A DNA stretch of 64,000 nt from the NCBI RefSeq assembly GCF_006228385.1, contig NZ_CP039852.1, positions 2,558,001-2,622,000 on the forward strand. Reading direction: 5' to 3'. The translations under genes were made by a program, and so were the position numbers. The notes below the pieces were generated by a model that was not told the DNA's origin, did no database searches, and worked only from the letters and a program-made list of their open reading frames with translations. Each line of letters begins with the position of its first letter. Position 1 is the stretch's first letter. Of the stretch, positions 53,466 to 61,745 are shown piece by piece. The DNA comes from Salinimonas iocasae (lineage in GTDB: Bacteria; Pseudomonadota; Gammaproteobacteria; Enterobacterales; Alteromonadaceae).

Positions 53466-54647
53466 ATGACTGTACCTGCACTTGATGAACTTCGCTCACG
53501 CATTACAAACCTGGATAGTGAGTTGCTGGCATTACTCGCTGAGCGTCGCGCGCTGACTAATGAAGTTGCTGAAACAAAAATCTCACACCAAATTCCGGTC
53601 AGGGATATTAAACGTGAAGAGCAACTACTGATCCGCCTGATAAAACACGGGCAGGAAAAAGGGCTGGATGCGCATTATGTCACGCAGGTTTTCCACGTCA
53701 TCATTGAAGACTCTGTCCTAAATCAGCAGACAATGTTAGCCGAACGCGCGAACCCTGGCAGTGCGCTGCCGTTAAATCGCGTAGCGTTTTTAGGCGACCG
53801 GGGCTCATATTCTTATCTTGCCACACAAAAGTATTTTTCCCGCCGTCCCGGTGAGTTGCTGGAAATTGGCTGCCAGAGTTTCAGCGAAATTGTACAAAAA
53901 GTTGAGCACGCCGAAGCCGATTACGCTGTACTACCTATCGAAAATACGACTTCCGGTAGCATCAATGAAGTCTATGACCAGCTGCAACATACTGAACTCA
54001 GCATCATCGGCGAGCTGACACATCCTATTCGTCATGCACTATTGGTGGCCACATCGACCTCGCTGGATAAAATTAAAACCCTGTATGCGCATCCCCAGGT
54101 GTTTACACAGTGCAGCCACTTTCTCGCTGAGCTGGGCAATGTTGAGGTCAAAACTATCGACAGTACTTCATCGGCAATGCTGAAAGTCAGTGAGTTGCAG
54201 CGTGATGATGTCGCCGCTATCGGCAGTGAAGCCGGCGGTAATCTTTACGGACTGTCAGCGATTAGATCCAATCTGGCTAATCAGAAAGAGAACCACAGCC
54301 GTTTTATTGTGGTCGCCCGTCAGGCGGTTAAGGTGCCGTTGCAGGTGCCAGCCAAAACCACCCTGGTCATGTCGACGATTCAAAAGCCCGGCTCGCTGGT
54401 TGAAGCGCTGATGGTGCTGAAAAATAATGAAATTAACATGACAAAACTTGAGTCGCGCCCCATGCCAGGTAACCCGTGGGAGGAAATGTTTTATATTGAT
54501 GTTGAAGGTAATACGGCAGATGGCCCGTTGCAACAGGCGATTGAAGAGCTGAAAAAGATTACGCGGTATCTTAAAGTGTTAGGCTGTTATCCTTCAGAAG
54601 AAATCAGTCCCACGAAAGTCGCTGCCGCGAGCGCGCTATCTGAATAA
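53466..54647 (+). CDS. pheA: PheA, chorismate mutase / prephenate dehydratase
   Basis: A 393-residue bifunctional P-protein for phenylalanine synthesis. It has a chorismate mutase (1-90, LDELRSRITNLDSELLALLAERRALTNEVAETK) and a prephenate dehydratase (about 105-285, AFLGDRGSYSYLATQKYF, YAVLPIENTTSGSINEVYD with the catalytic TTS). The C-terminal ACT regulatory domain (about 295-375) has the ESRPMPGNPWEEMFYIDVEG Phe-binding segment. Feedback inhibition by Phe is expected. The length is close to E. coli PheA (386). It is controlled by the pheL attenuator. Confidence 0.96.
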   Translation: MTVPALDELRSRITNLDSELLALLAERRALTNEVAETKISHQIPVRDIKREEQLLIRLIKHGQEKGLDAHYVTQVFHVIIEDSVLNQQTMLAERANPGSALPLNRVAFLGDRGSYSYLATQKYFSRRPGELLEIGCQSFSEIVQKVEHAEADYAVLPIENTTSGSINEVYDQLQHTELSIIGELTHPIRHALLVATSTSLDKIKTLYAHPQVFTQCSHFLAELGNVEVKTIDSTSSAMLKVSELQRDDVAAIGSEAGGNLYGLSAIRSNLANQKENHSRFIVVARQAVKVPLQVPAKTTLVMSTIQKPGSLVEALMVLKNNEINMTKLESRPMPGNPWEEMFYIDVEGNTADGPLQQAIEELKKITRYLKVLGCYPSEEISPTKVAAASALSE

Positions 54648-54658
54648 AAGCGCGCACT

Positions 54659-56410
54659 TTATGCCGGTTGCTCTGTAACTGATGTGAGTATAACTTCAGG
54701 CTCATAGCCGCAAATTTTATTGCGTCCGGTTTCTTTACTTTGGTAGAGCGCCTCATCAGCACTGGCATAAAGCTTATCAAAACTGTAGCCACACTGGCGG
54801 GAGTCCGAGACGCCGAAACTGGCGGTAACCGAAAACGCGTGACCGGTGGGTGTGGAATCTATTGCGGCAATAGCACTGCGATAGTTCTCAGTAATCGCTA
54901 TGGCTTTTTCAACGGTACATCCGGGTAGCAGCAGCGCGAATTCCTCGCCTCCCATTCGCCCGATAATATCCTGTCCCCGGCAAACGCGCTGCACTGTTTT
55001 TACCACTTGTTGTAATACCCAGTCGCCGACTATGTGGCCGTAGGTATCGTTAATACGTTTAAACAAATCCAGGTCAAAAATTACAAACGCCAGATCTTGT
55101 CCGGTGCGCGAGTGATAACGTAAATTAGACTGGGCCAGCTCAGTGAAATAATGCCGGTTAGTCACCCCGGTAAGTTTATCGGTGCGGGCCTGTGTTTTGA
55201 ATTTACGGTGAATTCTGCGTGTGACCATCAGCCAGGCAATAATAACGGCAGCTAACATCACCAGTGAGAGGATGACAAGATAACTGTTCTGTAATTCTTT
55301 CTTGCGTAATCTGGCTTCGGTTTTCAGTAGCGCATTTTCTTTGTCCAGCAGTTTAATCTGGTTGGCTTTTTCCAGCGCTTCGTTTTTGGCTTTTGATATA
55401 GATAATTGCTTCGCTGAAACTTCATCCACATACGCTTTTTCTAGCTCAGCATATTGCTTATAAAATGCTAATGCCCGACTACTGTTGCTTCTGAATTCTT
55501 CAATAAGATATAGCACATATAACGCATCAACATTAGGTTTTGTTGCACCCATTTGAGACGCTATATCTAAAGCTGCTTTTGCCTGTACTTCAGCCTCGAT
55601 GATGCTGTTCGATTTAAACAGCAGCATTGACATTAATGAGTGATATTCAGCCTTGATTCGGGGATAGTTTATAGCGTCAAAAATCGCTTTATTTTCAATT
55701 AATAATTCCTGCGCAGATTCTGCATCATCCTTATTCAGAAGGTTTTTTGCCTTAAGGATAACCGTTGAGGCTATAACTACGTTCTCCTCAGCAAGTCTGC
55801 ATGCCTCCAAACCTTGCTCAAAATTTTCTTTAGAGATAATTTTCTGTTGGTTAACCTGAGCTTCAAAAATTAAGTTATTGCCGAAACAGATAGATCGCAG
55901 ATCGCTGGTTAGAGAAAGCGCTTCAGATGCACTTTTATAGGCATCGTCATACTCATTTACCTGGTTATAAAATATAGCAAGCCCCAGGTGAGCTTGCGCA
56001 GCGGCTTCCGAGCCTGGCGTCGCAAGCTGAGGCAATAAATACGTAACAGTATCGAAGCCTTCGCTATAGTTACGTGTGATAGCGAAAATATTTAGCAGTG
56101 CAGTAGAAGCGTACAGCCTTAGTTCTGCATCAACTGTGTTTGCAATGACATGCTGATACTTTTCTATGGCCAGAAGTGGTTTACCTGAAAAAGCGACGCG
56201 GTAACCATCCAGATATTCGAATTTAAGTTTTTGTTCGTCATTCAATCGTTTATCAGATTCTGCCAAACTATCCAGCAATGCCGAGAATTTTTCAGGCGCT
56301 TTACTTTTCAACTTCCAGGCTTGAGCAAGCATGCTATCTACATCATTTTCAGATGCAAAAGCGTTGAAAACCCATGAACTTAGGAGGAAGAAAAGTAAAG
56401 CTTTTTTCAT
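54659..56410 (-). CDS. TPR-GGDEF diguanylate cyclase
   Basis: A 583-residue protein. It has a signal peptide (LLFFLLSSWVFNAFASEN), a periplasmic all-helical region with TPR-like repeats (about 30-340), a coiled coil (about 340-375) and a membrane helix (YLVILSLVMLAAVIIAWLMV). The C-terminal GGDEF domain (about 410-570) has active-site GRMGGEEFALL. It would make c-di-GMP in response to a periplasmic signal. The 66-residue peptide gene ends 2 bases before its ATG, implying tight coupling. It converges on pheA with an 11-base gap. Confidence 0.9.
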   Translation of the reverse strand: MKKALLFFLLSSWVFNAFASENDVDSMLAQAWKLKSKAPEKFSALLDSLAESDKRLNDEQKLKFEYLDGYRVAFSGKPLLAIEKYQHVIANTVDAELRLYASTALLNIFAITRNYSEGFDTVTYLLPQLATPGSEAAAQAHLGLAIFYNQVNEYDDAYKSASEALSLTSDLRSICFGNNLIFEAQVNQQKIISKENFEQGLEACRLAEENVVIASTVILKAKNLLNKDDAESAQELLIENKAIFDAINYPRIKAEYHSLMSMLLFKSNSIIEAEVQAKAALDIASQMGATKPNVDALYVLYLIEEFRSNSSRALAFYKQYAELEKAYVDEVSAKQLSISKAKNEALEKANQIKLLDKENALLKTEARLRKKELQNSYLVILSLVMLAAVIIAWLMVTRRIHRKFKTQARTDKLTGVTNRHYFTELAQSNLRYHSRTGQDLAFVIFDLDLFKRINDTYGHIVGDWVLQQVVKTVQRVCRGQDIIGRMGGEEFALLLPGCTVEKAIAITENYRSAIAAIDSTPTGHAFSVTASFGVSDSRQCGYSFDKLYASADEALYQSKETGRNKICGYEPEVILTSVTEQPA

Positions 56411-56412
56411 GA

Positions 56413-56613
56413 TCAGTGCATTATGGTCTGTTCTGAGTCAGAAGGGGCCGGCTTCTCCGTTTCTTCTTCGTCATCTTTTTCAGGAACCATCAGACACCAC
56501 TGTTTGTTGTGCTCAGGTAACTCGTTTTCTACCCGCTCTGCAAAGATTTCTTTCGCCTTACCTCGATTTAGTGCATCTGCACCTAGCTGCTCTAATAATT
56601 GGATCGCAGACAT
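56413..56613 (-). CDS. 66-residue acidic peptide of unknown function
   Basis: A short protein beginning MSAIQLLEQLGADALNR, with a helical N-terminus, a central NKQWCLMVPEKDD and a Glu/Asp-rich tail (DDEEETEKPAPSDSEQ). ATG 56613 with GAG about 8 bases before it is preferred to GTG 56622. It is separated from the GGDEF gene by only 2 bases, so the two are coupled. A TTGACA with a weak -10 (about 56694) suggests its own promoter. The LxQLGxDA start resembles, as I recall it, the start of SonA, the substrate peptide of the SonM methyltransferase. The rest is unlike, so a link to the methyltransferase is speculative. Confidence 0.6.
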   Translation of the reverse strand: MSAIQLLEQLGADALNRGKAKEIFAERVENELPEHNKQWCLMVPEKDDEEETEKPAPSDSEQTIMH

Positions 56614-56697: not shown

Positions 56698-57209
56698 TCA
56701 AACAATTTGCAATGTGGCCTTATTCGCATATGCCTCTAGCACGCTGCAATCGGCACCATCAGTATCTAATCTGAACGAAAAACCTAGTTGGATCAGCTGC
56801 TTCTTAATAACAAAGTGACTTTTCGCAAACCTTGCAATCACTTCCGATTGCTCCAGGTTGGTTAACGCAAATCGACAGGCTCTGCTCAAAGCTTCCAACG
56901 AATACCCTTTTCCATTTTTTTTGGGTCAAGCATTATTCCTATTTCGCATTTCCGTTCGCTTACTGTTTTGAGCATAATCAGCCCACAGTGCAATTGTGTT
57001 TGTTTATCAAATACCCCCCATACATATTGTTTAAAGTGTTTTTTCTGATTTGTTCGAATCACTGACTCGAACAAATCCCCTGCTTCCGTTTCACTTAGCA
57101 CGGGCCCAATTTTTCTCATGACTTTCGGATCCCGGTACAGCGAGATAAATATTTCCCTGTCTGCCGCTTTTAACAATCGAAAGTCCAGCCGATGAGAACT
57201 AAACTCCAT
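56698..57209 (-). pseudogene. GNAT acetyltransferase split by a frameshift at an A8 run
   Basis: Two overlapping frames together make one GNAT enzyme of about 170 residues (RimJ/RimL type). Frame 1 (57209-56886) has the N-terminal half and ends soon after EIGIMLDPKK. Frame 2 (through 56698) carries the remaining GKGYSLEALSRACRFALTN acetyl-CoA motif and C-terminus. The break is at eight A residues (minus strand CCC AAAAAAAA TGG, near 56916-56923). A -1 shift at A_AAA_AAA restores DPKKNGKGYSLEALSR. It may be a true mutation, slippage-based expression or a sequencing error. It overlaps the methyltransferase gene by 11 bases. Confidence 0.75.
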
Positions 57210-57996
57210 CAGAATTCTTCAACTTATTCAGCCGGGATACCATTTCGCTGTCTTCAATTTTGCTGTGCGAGGGAGGTATAACCAACGTTGTATGCTGATG
57301 TACCGTTGCACTACTTAATTCATTTAGCGCCAGCCACTCGATACGCACATCTTCAATCGGCAATACGGCAGCTTCATATAACGCAACGTGGTGTGAGCCA
57401 GGATAGAAAGTCAGCAAACATTCCTGAAGCAAGGCTCGATAGCGATTGTCAGATGTGAATGCTTTCTGGGAACGGTCCCCGGCCATCCCCACCTGCCATA
57501 AAATCAATAACGCTGAGGTATCCACCACTTTACGATTTACCATAAATTGCGTAGCTTCATAATGTGCACAGCCATGTGTCCCCGGGTCCAGGCCCATATC
57601 CGCGTATAGACAATCTTCGGCGGAAATACCGGGTTCCATATGCGCGTGGTGGCCTTCCTCTCTGGCCTGCTGAATAACTTTGTGAGGGGCAAGAGCAAAC
57701 ACACCGGGATGTCCATAAAAGGCCCCAACCACTTTCTTACCAGCCCGCACCTCGGTCATCATTGCATCGACCATCTCGCGATATGTTTGTCGACGATCTT
57801 TGCCCTCAGCGTAAAACGGTTGCAGACTTCTGACATCGCTGTTCATTTCGTTGATCCAAAGCTCGACGTAACTGTCAGAGGCACTGGAAAAAACAACGTC
57901 TGCCTGTTCTATGTGGCTTCTGGATAATGGCGTAATATGAGAGCCCAGGGTCATTCCCACGCCTACACAGACAATGCTGCCTTGCTTTGTTGTCAT
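57199..57996 (-). CDS. borosin-type peptide N-methyltransferase (SonM-like)
   Basis: A 265-residue S-adenosylmethionine enzyme of the tetrapyrrole-methylase fold, closest in pattern to the borosin alpha-N-methyltransferases such as Shewanella SonM. Visible are SIVCVGVGMTLGSHITPLSR at the start, then Tyr62, Arg68/Arg69 and Tyr72 in FYAEGKDRRQTYREMV, matching the catalytic Tyr/Arg/Tyr set of OphMA/SonM. It also has YGHPGVFA (94-101) and MEPGISAEDCLYADMGLDPG. It lacks the fused core peptide, so it would be a split (type IV) borosin enzyme acting on a separate precursor. It overlaps the protease gene by 4 bases and the GNAT gene by 11. Family from memory, not search. Confidence 0.8.
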   Translation of the reverse strand: MTTKQGSIVCVGVGMTLGSHITPLSRSHIEQADVVFSSASDSYVELWINEMNSDVRSLQPFYAEGKDRRQTYREMVDAMMTEVRAGKKVVGAFYGHPGVFALAPHKVIQQAREEGHHAHMEPGISAEDCLYADMGLDPGTHGCAHYEATQFMVNRKVVDTSALLILWQVGMAGDRSQKAFTSDNRYRALLQECLLTFYPGSHHVALYEAAVLPIEDVRIEWLALNELSSATVHQHTTLVIPPSHSKIEDSEMVSRLNKLKNSDGV

Positions 57997-59303
57997 ATAC
58001 TTTTATTACCTTTGCTGACAGGTCGTAACGCATGATGAATCGCCTGAATCATATGACCCGGAATATCGACTTTGATGGCAAAGTGGATTTCACCGGTGTC
58101 TCCAGCGCTGCGATCAAATATGGTGTAGTAGTTATTCAGAAGTGGCAGACCCAGAATGATCTGGTTTGGCCAGCCCGGCAGATAGCAAAGTTTAAATGCT
58201 GCTTTGCCGTGAGCAGGGGCGTGTATCTGCCAGTAAGTGTCAGGCGAGAGTGTAAGAGTAACAGACTCATCAGTAGTGCTCTGACATCTAATATAGATAG
58301 GCGGCCATTGGCTCAGATCCAGTAAATCGGCGTCTATACCTGTTTCTTCACCAGTGAAAGCATCGTAGGGTGACAGAAGGGGTGCAAAATCTTTGTTGTA
58401 TGCTATCAGTTGCCTTTTTACTTTATCGAAAATCGCCTGAGGCAGCACTATGGCTGACGCACCGCTATCGATAATGCCATTGGTGCAGTAGCCTTTTACA
58501 TGCTTATCATCGAGTACCGGACCGGGGATTGGATCGCCATCACCGACACGAATGCTCTGCACATTTACGTTGTAGTATTTGTCGTGCAGCACTGCCACCG
58601 TTTTTATCGGCTGCGTATAGAGGTCGCAGTGCAGTAACGGGTCACCGAGCACAAAGAGCCCATGATTCAAGTGATGCGCCAGCAACTTTTCAGCTGGCTG
58701 ATGCGTTTGCGTATGATAGATACTGGATCGATGTGTCAGCAATGCGAACTGATTAGCTACCACCCCGCTTTCTTCCAGCCGGGTGAAGTACGGTGCGATA
58801 TGGGTTCTGGGGTACTGGTTTAAAAAATGCGTGTATTCAGAGACGTTCTGCGTTGTATGCTGCATCACATAAGGAAATGTTTCGCAGGGACTTACACTCT
58901 GCTCTGTGAGAAAATCAGTGAGATCGTAAGCACCGTCGAGCGCGGTATAGGCCAGACCCAGAATCCCATCTGCCTCTAAAAAGCTGGCCACCTGCGTTTG
59001 AGATGCCAGTGCTACTGACACACCATCAAGCTCAGCATGATGACCATGCAGACCGGCAATGATGCTGGTTTGTATCACTGGCCCGTACCACCCGCCTTTA
59101 CCGTATTGCACGTCCTGAACCAGTGCGGTACCTGTGAGGTGACTGTCTTGCAGGGGGTCATAATCGTTATCGTGAATGACCAGCGAGCTGCTACCGGTAT
59201 CCAGGATAAGGTTTACCGCGTGACGCTGCGAGCCAACAAAAAGACGCGCGGTGCATCCCCCTTTGGCATACACATTAGTAACGGGTATTCTGATTGATGC
59301 CAT
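57993..59303 (-). CDS. pepsin-like aspartic protease (A1 family, bacterial)
   Basis: A 436-residue two-lobed aspartic protease. The two catalytic motifs are LILDTGSSSLVI (Asp35) and GIIDSGASAIVLP (Asp279). The flap tyrosine Tyr67 lies in QYGKGGWYG, as in pepsin's YGTG flap. A C-terminal IILGLPLLNNYYTIFD matches the pepsin end motif. Bacterial pepsins are rare; Shewanella shewasins are the known example and, like this one, lack a signal peptide and propeptide. ATG 59303 is preferred to TTG 59336, which lies in the tyrA terminator. It overlaps the methyltransferase gene by 4 bases, so it may process the methylated peptide. Confidence 0.88.
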   Translation of the reverse strand: MASIRIPVTNVYAKGGCTARLFVGSQRHAVNLILDTGSSSLVIHDNDYDPLQDSHLTGTALVQDVQYGKGGWYGPVIQTSIIAGLHGHHAELDGVSVALASQTQVASFLEADGILGLAYTALDGAYDLTDFLTEQSVSPCETFPYVMQHTTQNVSEYTHFLNQYPRTHIAPYFTRLEESGVVANQFALLTHRSSIYHTQTHQPAEKLLAHHLNHGLFVLGDPLLHCDLYTQPIKTVAVLHDKYYNVNVQSIRVGDGDPIPGPVLDDKHVKGYCTNGIIDSGASAIVLPQAIFDKVKRQLIAYNKDFAPLLSPYDAFTGEETGIDADLLDLSQWPPIYIRCQSTTDESVTLTLSPDTYWQIHAPAHGKAAFKLCYLPGWPNQIILGLPLLNNYYTIFDRSAGDTGEIHFAIKVDIPGHMIQAIHHALRPVSKGNKSI

Positions 59304-59334: not shown

Positions 59335-59365
59335 AAAAATGCAGACGCTGGTTAAAGCGTCTGCA
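59335..59365 (-). terminator. Rho-independent terminator of aroF-tyrA
   Basis: On the minus strand TGCAGACGC / GCGTCTGCA (59340-59365) with a TTTAACCA loop, followed by TTTTT. It ends the aroF-tyrA operon and separates it from the protease operon. Confidence 0.85.
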
Positions 59366-59487
59366 TGGGCCGGCCCTGCTATATATGATGCCATAGTAAT
59401 TTTTTGAGTGCTCTGCCAGACACGCTTATCTCATAAATGCGTTATCGGCTGCGCTGAAGATTTCTTTAGCTCATTGTCCGCGTTAGG

Positions 59488-60621
59488 TCACATCTTGTCG
59501 TCGTCAGCTTTCAGTAACAGCTTTTTGCTATCCTTCAGAGATTTTCGCGCATACGGGCCAAACCATTCTGCGATGGTCTTAAACTGCTTTACGAACTCTG
59601 ACTTATCATTACTGTCCAGAAGCGATAGCGCCTCGCCAAAACGCGCATGAAACCGCTTTAGTAACTCAAAGTTTTCCGGATTATTAAAAATGATATCCCC
59701 ATAAAGTTCCGGCGGCTGGGCGAACAATCGGCCTACCATTGCCAGTTCCAACCGGTATATGGGTGAGCTGAACGTTTTTAGCACTGACAAATCGGGGTTT
59801 TCACGACTCAGATGGGCGCCATAAACAAACGTATTGAAGTGTCGCATGACCTGAATATAAGCCATTGCTTCATCATGCTCTGTTGCGCCACTGTTGTGTA
59901 ACGTCGCGCCCCAGGTAGTCATCTGATCCATCAGCCACTGACACTTATCAGTATCACGACCTTCCGTGACTACAACCACCTGTTTAATCATTCCCGGGGC
60001 ATCGGGACCAAACATAGGGTGTAATCCAATAACCGGTCCCGGGTGGGTGGCCAACATCGCTTCTAACGGTCGCTTTTTAATACTGGTGACATCGGCAAGA
60101 ATACAGTCGGGTTTTAGCATGGTCAGTGTTGAGATAACCTGCTCGGTCACATTTATCGGCACTGCAACCACCACCACATCGGCCTGAGATAACCTCTTTT
60201 GGGCCAGACCATTATCCCAGTCGGTCTTTTCTACCGAGGCAACCGAGTATCCGCTTTTGGAAAACAGCGAAACAAATACGCTGCCCAGCGCGCCACCACC
60301 ACCGATAACGACAATATTACCGACATCAGGATTCACGCACCGGTAGCGATTATTTTGAGTGTGGTAGGATTCACGCATGATCCGGCGCAATAAATCTTCT
60401 ACCAAATCAGGGGAAACGCCGGCATGTTCAGCCTGCTCCCGGCGTGAAGCAATCAGGCTTTTTTCCCGTTCTGGAACGTAGACTGGTACGCCGGATTCAG
60501 CCTTGATTTTGCCTACTTCAGTGGTTAGCGCCGCCCTTTCAGCTAGCAGCTCTACAAGTTGCGAGTCTAACGCATCAATGCCCTGACGTAATTCGTCAAG
60601 GCGCTGTGATGTATCTGTCAT
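59488..60621 (-). CDS. tyrA: TyrA, chorismate mutase / prephenate dehydrogenase
   Basis: A 377-residue bifunctional T-protein for tyrosine synthesis. The chorismate mutase domain (1-90, LDELRQGIDALDSQLVELLAERAALTTEVGKIK) is followed by an NAD-binding dehydrogenase (about 105-375). That domain shows VIGGGGALGSVFVSLFSKSG and the GLHPMFGPDAPGM substrate region. The length matches E. coli TyrA (373). The start is 20 bases after the aroF stop, forming the aroF-tyrA operon. Confidence 0.96.
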   Translation of the reverse strand: MTDTSQRLDELRQGIDALDSQLVELLAERAALTTEVGKIKAESGVPVYVPEREKSLIASRREQAEHAGVSPDLVEDLLRRIMRESYHTQNNRYRCVNPDVGNIVVIGGGGALGSVFVSLFSKSGYSVASVEKTDWDNGLAQKRLSQADVVVVAVPINVTEQVISTLTMLKPDCILADVTSIKKRPLEAMLATHPGPVIGLHPMFGPDAPGMIKQVVVVTEGRDTDKCQWLMDQMTTWGATLHNSGATEHDEAMAYIQVMRHFNTFVYGAHLSRENPDLSVLKTFSSPIYRLELAMVGRLFAQPPELYGDIIFNNPENFELLKRFHARFGEALSLLDSNDKSEFVKQFKTIAEWFGPYARKSLKDSKKLLLKADDDKM

Positions 60622-60641: not shown

Positions 60642-61745
60642 TCAGGCCACTTGAATACGTTTATCCTGGCGCATTGGAAGCACAGTAATAAGCCTGTCGC
60701 GCATTTGCGTTAGCAATTGCTCCGTGGTGGCCCAGTCAATACAGCCATCTGTAATAGATACGCCGTAATCCAGCTCATCCGGCTTTTTGCCGTCAGCTTT
60801 CTGATTACCGGCAAAGATATGGCTTTCCAGCATTATGCCGATTATAGACTGGTTTCCTTCAAGAATCTGGTTAACGACATTTTTAGCCACCGCCGGCTGA
60901 CGACGATAATCTTTGCTTGAGTTTGCGTGACTGCAGTCTACTACTAAGCCTGCGGTTAAACCGGCCTGCGCTAATTCTTCTTCACAATCGGTGACACACA
61001 CCGAGTCATAGTTAGGTTGTTTACCGCCACGTAAAATTATATGGCCGTCGGGATTGCCCTTGGTCCCAATGATGCTGACCTGACCTTCCTTATTGATACC
61101 CATAAAACGATGCGGTGATGCCGCCGACTTAAGTGCATTAATGGCAATGTCCAGACTGCCATCGGTGCCATTTTTGAAACCTACCGGCATTGACAGGCCA
61201 CTGGCCATCTCCCGGTGTGTTTGTGATTCGGAAGTACGGGCGCCAATAGCGCTCCAGCTAAAAAGCTCGGCCAGATACTGCGGGCTGATAGGATCAAGCG
61301 CTTCAGTAGCCACGGGTAGTTCCAGTTCAGCCAGCCAGATAAGCAGTTCCCGGGCTTTACGCAGTCCGGTTTCAATATCGAACGTGCCATCAATATGAGG
61401 GTCGTTAATCAGCCCTTTCCAGCCTGTCGTCGTGCGTGGCTTTTCAAAATAAACCCGCATCACAATAAATAGCGTGTCTTTGCAGGATTCGTGCATTTCT
61501 TTTAGCCGCAGGGCGTAATCTTTCGCTGCGTCAATGTCATGAATTGAGCAAGGTCCGCAAATTACCAACATACGATGGTCGCGACCCTGAATAATATCTG
61601 AAATTGTATTGCGGGCATCAGATATTGCATTGAGAGCCTTATCAGACACGGGTAACGCCTGACTTAAATCTTCCGGCGTAACCAGCACATCCTCGGTACT
61701 GATATGAACATTGTTAACGGTATCTTGAATCATATTTTCACTCAT
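60642..61745 (-). CDS. aroF: 3-deoxy-7-phosphoheptulonate synthase (AroF/AroG class)
   Basis: A 367-residue class I DAHP synthase, the first step of the aromatic pathway. Key motifs are RMLVICGPCSIHD, MRVYFEKPRTTTGWKGLINDP and AIGARTSESQTHRE, with the metal-site cysteine and histidines in GPCSIHD, DCSHANSSKDY and MLESHI. Position before tyrA is that of the tyrosine-sensitive AroF of E. coli. The isozyme type is inferred from this and from the TyrR-like box just upstream. ATG 61745 lacks a clear ribosome binding site; Met5 (61733), with GAGTGA before it, is an alternative start. Confidence 0.92.
   Translation of the reverse strand: MSENMIQDTVNNVHISTEDVLVTPEDLSQALPVSDKALNAISDARNTISDIIQGRDHRMLVICGPCSIHDIDAAKDYALRLKEMHESCKDTLFIVMRVYFEKPRTTTGWKGLINDPHIDGTFDIETGLRKARELLIWLAELELPVATEALDPISPQYLAELFSWSAIGARTSESQTHREMASGLSMPVGFKNGTDGSLDIAINALKSAASPHRFMGINKEGQVSIIGTKGNPDGHIILRGGKQPNYDSVCVTDCEEELAQAGLTAGLVVDCSHANSSKDYRRQPAVAKNVVNQILEGNQSIIGIMLESHIFAGNQKADGKKPDELDYGVSITDGCIDWATTEQLLTQMRDRLITVLPMRQDKRIQVA

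Follow-up and report, generated by a model that had tools for sequence, protein, structure and literature searches.

A shewasin-type pepsin gene linked to probable split-borosin clusters with a diguanylate cyclase partner in Salinimonas iocasae and related bacteria

Analysis of a 64-kb stretch of the Salinimonas iocasae genome (contig NZ_CP039852.1; hereafter the window, whose coordinates are used throughout) identified a cluster in which a pepsin-like aspartic protease gene adjoins the genes of a putative split-borosin pathway for a ribosomally synthesised and post-translationally modified peptide (RiPP). The open reading frame (ORF) list and searches place five co-directional genes on the minus strand, transcribed in the order pepsin-like protease, methyltransferase, GNAT acetyltransferase (in two frames), precursor and a gene joining tetratricopeptide repeats (TPR) to a GGDEF domain. 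The features are as follows; L and G numbers here and below are our labels for loci and genomes.

59339..59366, minus strand: intrinsic-terminator-like hairpin with an 11-pair stem, a 6-nt loop and a T run (hairpin scan)
57993..59303, minus strand: pepsin-like (family A1) aspartic protease of shewasin type, 436 aa (PF00026, 2.6e-15)
57199..57996, minus strand: SonM-like peptide backbone (alpha) N-methyltransferase, 265 aa (7LTC_A, E 1.1e-67)
56886..57209, minus strand: GNAT acetyltransferase, N-terminal frame piece, 107 aa (PF13302, 9.6e-11)
56698..56898, minus strand: GNAT C-terminal piece in the other frame (tblastn to the intact GNAT of L003; DNA alignment)
56413..56613, minus strand: SonA-like split-borosin precursor, 66 aa, with a leader resembling the borosin-binding domain (BBD) (L003 ORF; precursor profiles)
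56482..56499, minus strand: probable core segment W39-C-L-M-V-P44 before an acidic tail (judged from the alignment)
54659..56410, minus strand: hydrophobic N-terminus, TPR sensor, membrane helix and diguanylate cyclase (GGEEF, I-site), 583 aa

The protease and methyltransferase ORFs overlap by 4 bases (57993-57996) and the methyltransferase and first GNAT ORFs by 11 bases (57199-57209), as the first-pass annotation of this DNA had reported. The hairpin lies between an upstream tyrA-like gene and the protease and sets the operon apart; it is the longest of seven such sites in the scanned stretch, for which shuffled sequences average 5.2. The cluster is flanked by what we take to be a pheA-like gene (53466-54647, plus strand) and, on the other side, presumably a tyrA-like (59488-60621) and DAHP (3-deoxy-D-arabino-heptulosonate 7-phosphate)-synthase-like (60642-61745) pair, both on the minus strand. 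In Salinimonas profundi (L003), too, the protease is preceded by a tyrA-like gene.

Linkage of the pepsin and methyltransferase genes was assessed in 196 genomes of the window's family and in 146 from a second family, that of G545 and Shewanella. A borosin methyltransferase was found on the same contig and strand as the pepsin, at most 6.4 kb away, in 62 of the 64 pepsin-encoding genomes, the window's own included. The window's family has a pepsin in 24 genomes and a methyltransferase in 78; linkage holds in 23 of the 24 (again counting the window's own), with a median gap of 667 bases and a maximum of 6361. The corresponding numbers in the G545 family are 40 and 120, and 39 of the 40 pepsins are linked at gaps of 530-962 bases. 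The two exceptions are G650, where pepsin and GNAT reach the contig end, and G040, whose pepsin is interrupted and sits on a different contig. For a genome of some 4.5 Mb, a rough calculation predicts a neighbour within 6.4 kb by chance in well under 1% of cases, and a chance neighbourhood was rejected on the basis of the 62/64 linkage. Of the 62 linked clusters, 38 were retrieved for closer inspection: 22 of the 23 in the window's family and 16 of the 39 in the G545 family. GNAT and precursor were present in all 38 and the GGDEF gene in 37. Counted from the pepsin onwards, the pepsin comes first in every one of them, with an extra upstream GGDEF ORF in L130 and L148. The order kept is protease, GNAT and methyltransferase, precursor and TPR-GGDEF, the GNAT being placed on one or the other side of the methyltransferase, with the pepsin or the precursor as its other neighbour. 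The three genes are neighbours in related genomes, so that the first-pass condition for refutation, that they are never found side by side there, does not hold.

A separate set comprised the 80 named methyltransferase loci closest in sequence to the window's, of 128 found; 62 of the 80 have full flanks. Pepsin and GNAT occur together in 14 of these 62, pepsin without GNAT in none, GNAT without pepsin in 18 and neither in 30 (Fisher 2e-5, uncorrected for relatedness), while a precursor is present in all 62 and GGDEF in 60. The core of the system is therefore methyltransferase, precursor and GGDEF, with pepsin as an addition that is accompanied by GNAT. Phylum-wide, a PF00026 match was obtained in 8 of 398 genomes (7 over the cut-off) by a search that looks less sensitive than the protein searches; five of the eight have no borosin methyltransferase and three have one, adjacent to the pepsin in two. 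Bacterial pepsins are therefore not all borosin-linked, and the linked and unlinked ones may correspond to two groups drawn in PMC2761423. A pepsin tree proved unreliable (the G346 row was the wrong ORF and several branches were very long) and was not used; it placed the unlinked G304 pepsin among linked ones at an unresolved fork, and nothing was drawn from it.

The window's protease, the only pepsin match in the source genome, carries catalytic motifs at D35 (DTGS) and D279 (DSGA), both in invariant columns of a 38-sequence alignment, and so has the two motifs claimed for it at first pass. Its best PDB matches by sequence are BACE2, then pepsin and BACE1. The predicted structure (pLDDT, a per-residue confidence score, 93.4) likewise resembles BACE1/BACE2 most closely, with chymosin also matched. 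PF00026, the two motifs and the model together agree with the bilobal A1 fold with two Asp-Thr/Ser-Gly motifs. By a hydropathy check alone, its N-terminus is not strongly hydrophobic (maximum 0.63 versus 1.88 for the GGDEF protein) and gives no evident sign of a signal peptide. PMC4814920 describes shewasins as close to BACE enzymes, with a pH optimum of 3.5-4.55 and a P1 preference for Leu, Phe, Tyr and Asp, Pro being avoided, and reports pepstatin-sensitive proteolysis for shewasin D, which it describes as active and mainly cytoplasmic. By analogy, such a location would be right for a RiPP protease. Application of the cleavage preference to the window precursor singled out no single cut site.

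Published coordinates connect this cluster type to pepsins already studied. Table 1 of PMC2761423 gives coordinates for seven bacterial pepsins, four of which were matched, the Colwellia, Marinomonas and Sinorhizobium entries being left out. The ORF of the G629 pepsin coincides exactly with Sama_0787, complement(969066..970403), and the ORF of the G642 pepsin with Sden_0804, 923752..925041; Shew_2996 and Ssed_3567 are consistent with the pepsin matches in G704 and G702. All four Shewanella pepsins adjoin a borosin methyltransferase. The shewasin D antibody peptide (residues 208-221 in PMC4814920) is present in the G642 protein at 208-221, and the G629 and G642 pepsins are 56% identical, for which the papers give 55 and 55.5%. 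Thus, two enzymatically characterised pepsins, shewasins A and D, belong to clusters of this kind, with published coordinates agreeing to the base. Both G629 and G642 have the order pepsin, GNAT (4-base overlap), methyltransferase, precursor and GGDEF, with three precursors in G642; the window protease is 41% identical to the G629 pepsin and 38% to the G642 pepsin. A term search of the main texts of PMC4814920 and PMC2761423 found no mention of operon, methyltransferase or acetyltransferase. S. oneidensis, the source of SonM, is listed in PMC2761423 as without a pepsin homologue, which may be why the link went unnoticed; the same list also names S. halifaxensis, for which our own analysis lists a homologue.

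The methyltransferase, METHYLTRANSFERASE, finds SonM structures as its best solved relatives (7LTC_A, 1.1e-67), followed by OphMA-type enzymes; a single cobalamin enzyme appears among the matches listed, at 3.2e-4. The top NCBIfam match, YabN, reaches 49.5 bits against a cut-off of 525, and cobJ_cbiH 27.3 against 246.35. On these search scores, used here in place of a methyltransferase tree, a cobalamin or siroheme methylase was rejected; they uphold the SonM-like assignment made at first pass. Y62, R68, Y72 and Y94 match SonM Y58, R67, Y71 and Y93 on the sequence alignment (counted by hand), so that the Tyr/Arg/Tyr site proposed for comparison is present; mutation of these SonM residues entailed loss of activity according to PMC8429565. 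Among related ORFs, 152 of 153 show a loose pattern of this Y/R/Y/Y site, overlapping loci contributing some of them. The protein is therefore a separately encoded SonM homologue with the equivalents of all four residues, as in split borosins. The same genome holds a second borosin-type methyltransferase, L002 (G000:C1:1763981-1764727), 51% identical to the first and followed by a 72-aa ORF and then a GGDEF gene; the 72-aa ORF dropped out of the final precursor-profile matches, and tblastn found no GNAT within the 3.7 kb fetched.

The first-pass annotation saw no clear SonA-like precursor in the window; the ORF at 56413-56613, flanked by GNAT and the GGDEF gene, overturns this. An ORF is kept at the same place in the relatives L003 (74% identical), L004, L005 and L019. 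A search profile built from hand-picked seeds, the window ORF among them, matched precursor-like ORFs at 79 of 82 loci, in some cases within longer open frames, so that the proposed scan of relatives for SonA-like peptides gave a positive result; the window precursor scores 4.8e-10 on a profile of which it was itself a seed. A 23-precursor profile, also including the window's, matches SonA chains over the BBD, residues 1-55 (7LTC_B, E 4.8e-4); the next, unrelated PDB protein stands at 0.074, and none but SonA falls below 0.05. The ORF is thus a separate one with a BBD-like leader, as in split-borosin precursors, the match being indirect for the window protein itself. No Pfam or NCBIfam family matched it, and such weak hits as other members gave here and there seem unrelated. 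In the anchored-leader set a precursor typically starts with a leader of some 54 residues and continues with a hydrophobic stretch, then a well conserved proline and finally an acidic tail; P44 is conserved at 90% or more across the 23-precursor alignment (A1), and in a group made up mainly of Dyella and Rhodanobacter precursors the core differs. Tandem repeats of the core or tail region occur in L048 (7352-7777) and L044 (6898-7287), as if several cores followed one leader, and L134 (4536-6716) is a stretch of a pepsin cluster that holds five precursor-like ORFs, of which the first and second overlap.

The GNAT overlapping the methyltransferase stands as first described, except that it is not one open gene: its sequence falls into an ORF at 57209-56886 and another, in a different frame, at 56898-56698. 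The break falls at an A8 run (56915-56922) that is one base short relative to the intact 171-aa GNAT of L003, with the DNA on both sides of the run aligning to L003. The window therefore lacks the uninterrupted frame of a functional GNAT. Assembly error, slippage and real loss of the GNAT look the same in the sequence; the A8 run is a candidate slippage site. The GNAT belongs to Acetyltransf_3, a RimJ/RimL-like family.

The conserved TPR-GGDEF partner was overlooked at first pass. Its gene lies directly downstream of the precursor, and a precursor immediately precedes 106 of 122 GGDEF ORFs. Repeated precursor-GGDEF pairs occur in L005, L139, L141 and L144; in L139 three such pairs and two GNATs surround a single methyltransferase and a single pepsin. 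N-terminal hydropathy exceeds 1.8 in 95 of 128 GGDEF ORFs, and the TPR part precedes a long predicted helix that holds a hydrophobic stretch. On this topology, drawn from hydropathy and the predicted helix only, the TPR domain is presumed periplasmic. Two cysteines in it (window C175 and C204) are invariant in 46 of 46 aligned cyclases (alignment A2), which is compatible with a periplasmic disulfide. The TPR domain is modelled like the Rap pheromone receptors, at a sequence identity of 8-13%; the E3-ligase TPR degron receptor 8jal scores above them, at 25.8. Foldseek alone returned cyclase-domain proteins among the best 50 matches listed, and the TPR match came from a second look with VIA. Precursor-sensor covariation was examined by partial correlation of distance matrices, with 95 of 105 pairs kept when leaders were anchored. 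Without anchoring the correlations were 0.435 (whole precursor-sensor) and 0.40 (core-sensor); under anchoring core-sensor was 0.186, next to 0.125 for core-cyclase and -0.047 for core-methyltransferase; leader-sensor and leader-methyltransferase gave 0.38 and 0.378. Because the core-sensor signal is weak once leaders are anchored, covariation was not used as evidence of receptor specificity.

Together, these data suggest that the locus is probably a split-borosin RiPP cluster with the shewasin-type pepsin as its dedicated maturation protease. The parts, their order and their linkage can be read from the sequence. The methyltransferase would bind the precursor leader and very likely places methyl groups on backbone nitrogens of the hydrophobic core, at about C40-V43. 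The pepsin would then cut the methylated precursor in the cytoplasm, and release of the core by it is a likely outcome. Where the GNAT is intact, it might acetylate the newly made N-terminus, a step for which the case is evenly balanced. More tentatively, a membrane-permeable product could reach the TPR domain of the partner cyclase and alter c-di-GMP (cyclic diguanylate) synthesis; this step is conceivable, and on balance somewhat doubtful. The conserved TPR-GGDEF partner makes a possible signal, in place of an anonymous natural product, the likely purpose. A speculative extension, which we would not favour strongly, is a ribosomal peptide pheromone, N-methylated on its backbone and possibly N-acetylated, that methyltransferase, pepsin and GNAT would produce, that would be permeable enough to do without an exporter and that would be sensed by a cognate Rap-like TPR receptor fused to a diguanylate cyclase, with peptide level setting c-di-GMP.

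Several observations weigh against the reading of a split-borosin cluster with a dedicated pepsin and a possible signal. Pepsin is missing from 48 of the 62 full-flank loci and from 54 of the 78 methyltransferase genomes in the window's family; other proteases must therefore serve there. In the window's genus only the window's own genome, one of eight sampled, has a pepsin, and fragmentary or split copies occur among the linked pepsins (G111, G608 and G658). Lone profile-matching pepsins also exist, namely L164 (G346:C2), L165 (G304:C169) and the interrupted L146 (G040:C145), and the stretches fetched around these gave no GNAT, precursor, methyltransferase or GGDEF match. The acid optimum is odd for a cytosolic maturase. 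The window's GNAT is out of frame; its precursor alone finds no SonA in the PDB and, like its nearest relatives, has a leader about 20 residues shorter than most. Core-sensor covariation is weak, and the cleavage, methylation and acetylation roles are predicted ones. Some of the same facts would suit a pepsin that destroys rather than releases, clearing the methylated precursor or signal for turnover or self-protection: most full-flank loci do without it, the acid optimum suggests a conditional, stress-activated protease, and shewasins accept many hydrophobic sites (PMC4814920). However, the pepsin is tightly coupled to the GNAT and consistently first in the clusters fetched. Backbone N-methylation, moreover, generally protects peptides against proteolysis. 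We regard destruction as unlikely.

The tight pairing of precursor and GGDEF genes could also mean that nothing is exported, the modified precursor acting inside the cell as a regulator or partner of the diguanylate cyclase while pepsin and GNAT tune its level. The TPR domain lies between the hydrophobic N-terminus and the hydrophobic helix, however, and should face the periplasm, away from the precursor, which makes this improbable, more so than destruction. The methyltransferase does carry a PF00590 domain, as would a tetrapyrrole methylase of cobalamin/siroheme type in an accidental neighbourhood, but the gulf between the SonM and cobalamin matches, the conserved Y/R/Y/Y site, the presence of a precursor and the pepsin linkage leave that account with almost no credibility. 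Maturation by the pepsin thus remains our preferred reading. The borosin assignment and the pepsin-methyltransferase-GNAT neighbourhood of the first-pass annotation hold up strongly; its observations are partly confirmed and its interpretation is partly supported.

The 2016 paper on shewasin D (PMC4814920) did not settle what bacterial pepsins do. Exact gene coordinates now tie two characterised pepsins to a substrate candidate three genes away, and the question becomes testable with purified parts. Few mature borosins have been identified because a specific peptidase is missing, according to PMC11395268; if our reading is true, a natural protease for bacterial borosins is supplied, and a RiPP-to-c-di-GMP signalling route becomes testable. 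Were the pheromone reading true, bacterial pepsins would gain a function within a Gram-negative RiPP-to-c-di-GMP system that multiplies by duplicated precursor-receptor pairs. The open literature library, whose scope excludes Imani 2022, Cho 2022 and Crone 2023, contained no paper with both 'borosin' and 'pepsin' and none joining borosin and diguanylate, and the terms 'pepsin', 'aspartic' and 'aspartyl' were all absent from a review of RiPP leader proteases that was searched for them. The pathway was called undescribed at first pass; this is only partly right, as GGDEF already figures in a scheme of borosin architectures, where the Figure 1 legend of PMC11395268 expands the term, the sole library match for borosin with GGDEF.

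The closest known counterpart is SonM-SonA, the type IV split borosin of Shewanella oneidensis (PMC8429565), which likewise has a separate alpha-N-methyltransferase and a leader-core precursor. The two systems have the active-site residues in common, and the precursor family matches SonA over the BBD. Unlike SonM-SonA, compared here without the SonM locus, the window cluster contains a pepsin and a GNAT as additions, together with a TPR-GGDEF partner, and its precursor has a shorter leader than SonA. With shewasins A and D it shares the protease family, the catalytic motifs and the kind of gene cluster. Unlike the Rap/Phr receptors of Bacillus and its phages, the TPR domain is here joined via a membrane helix to a diguanylate cyclase.

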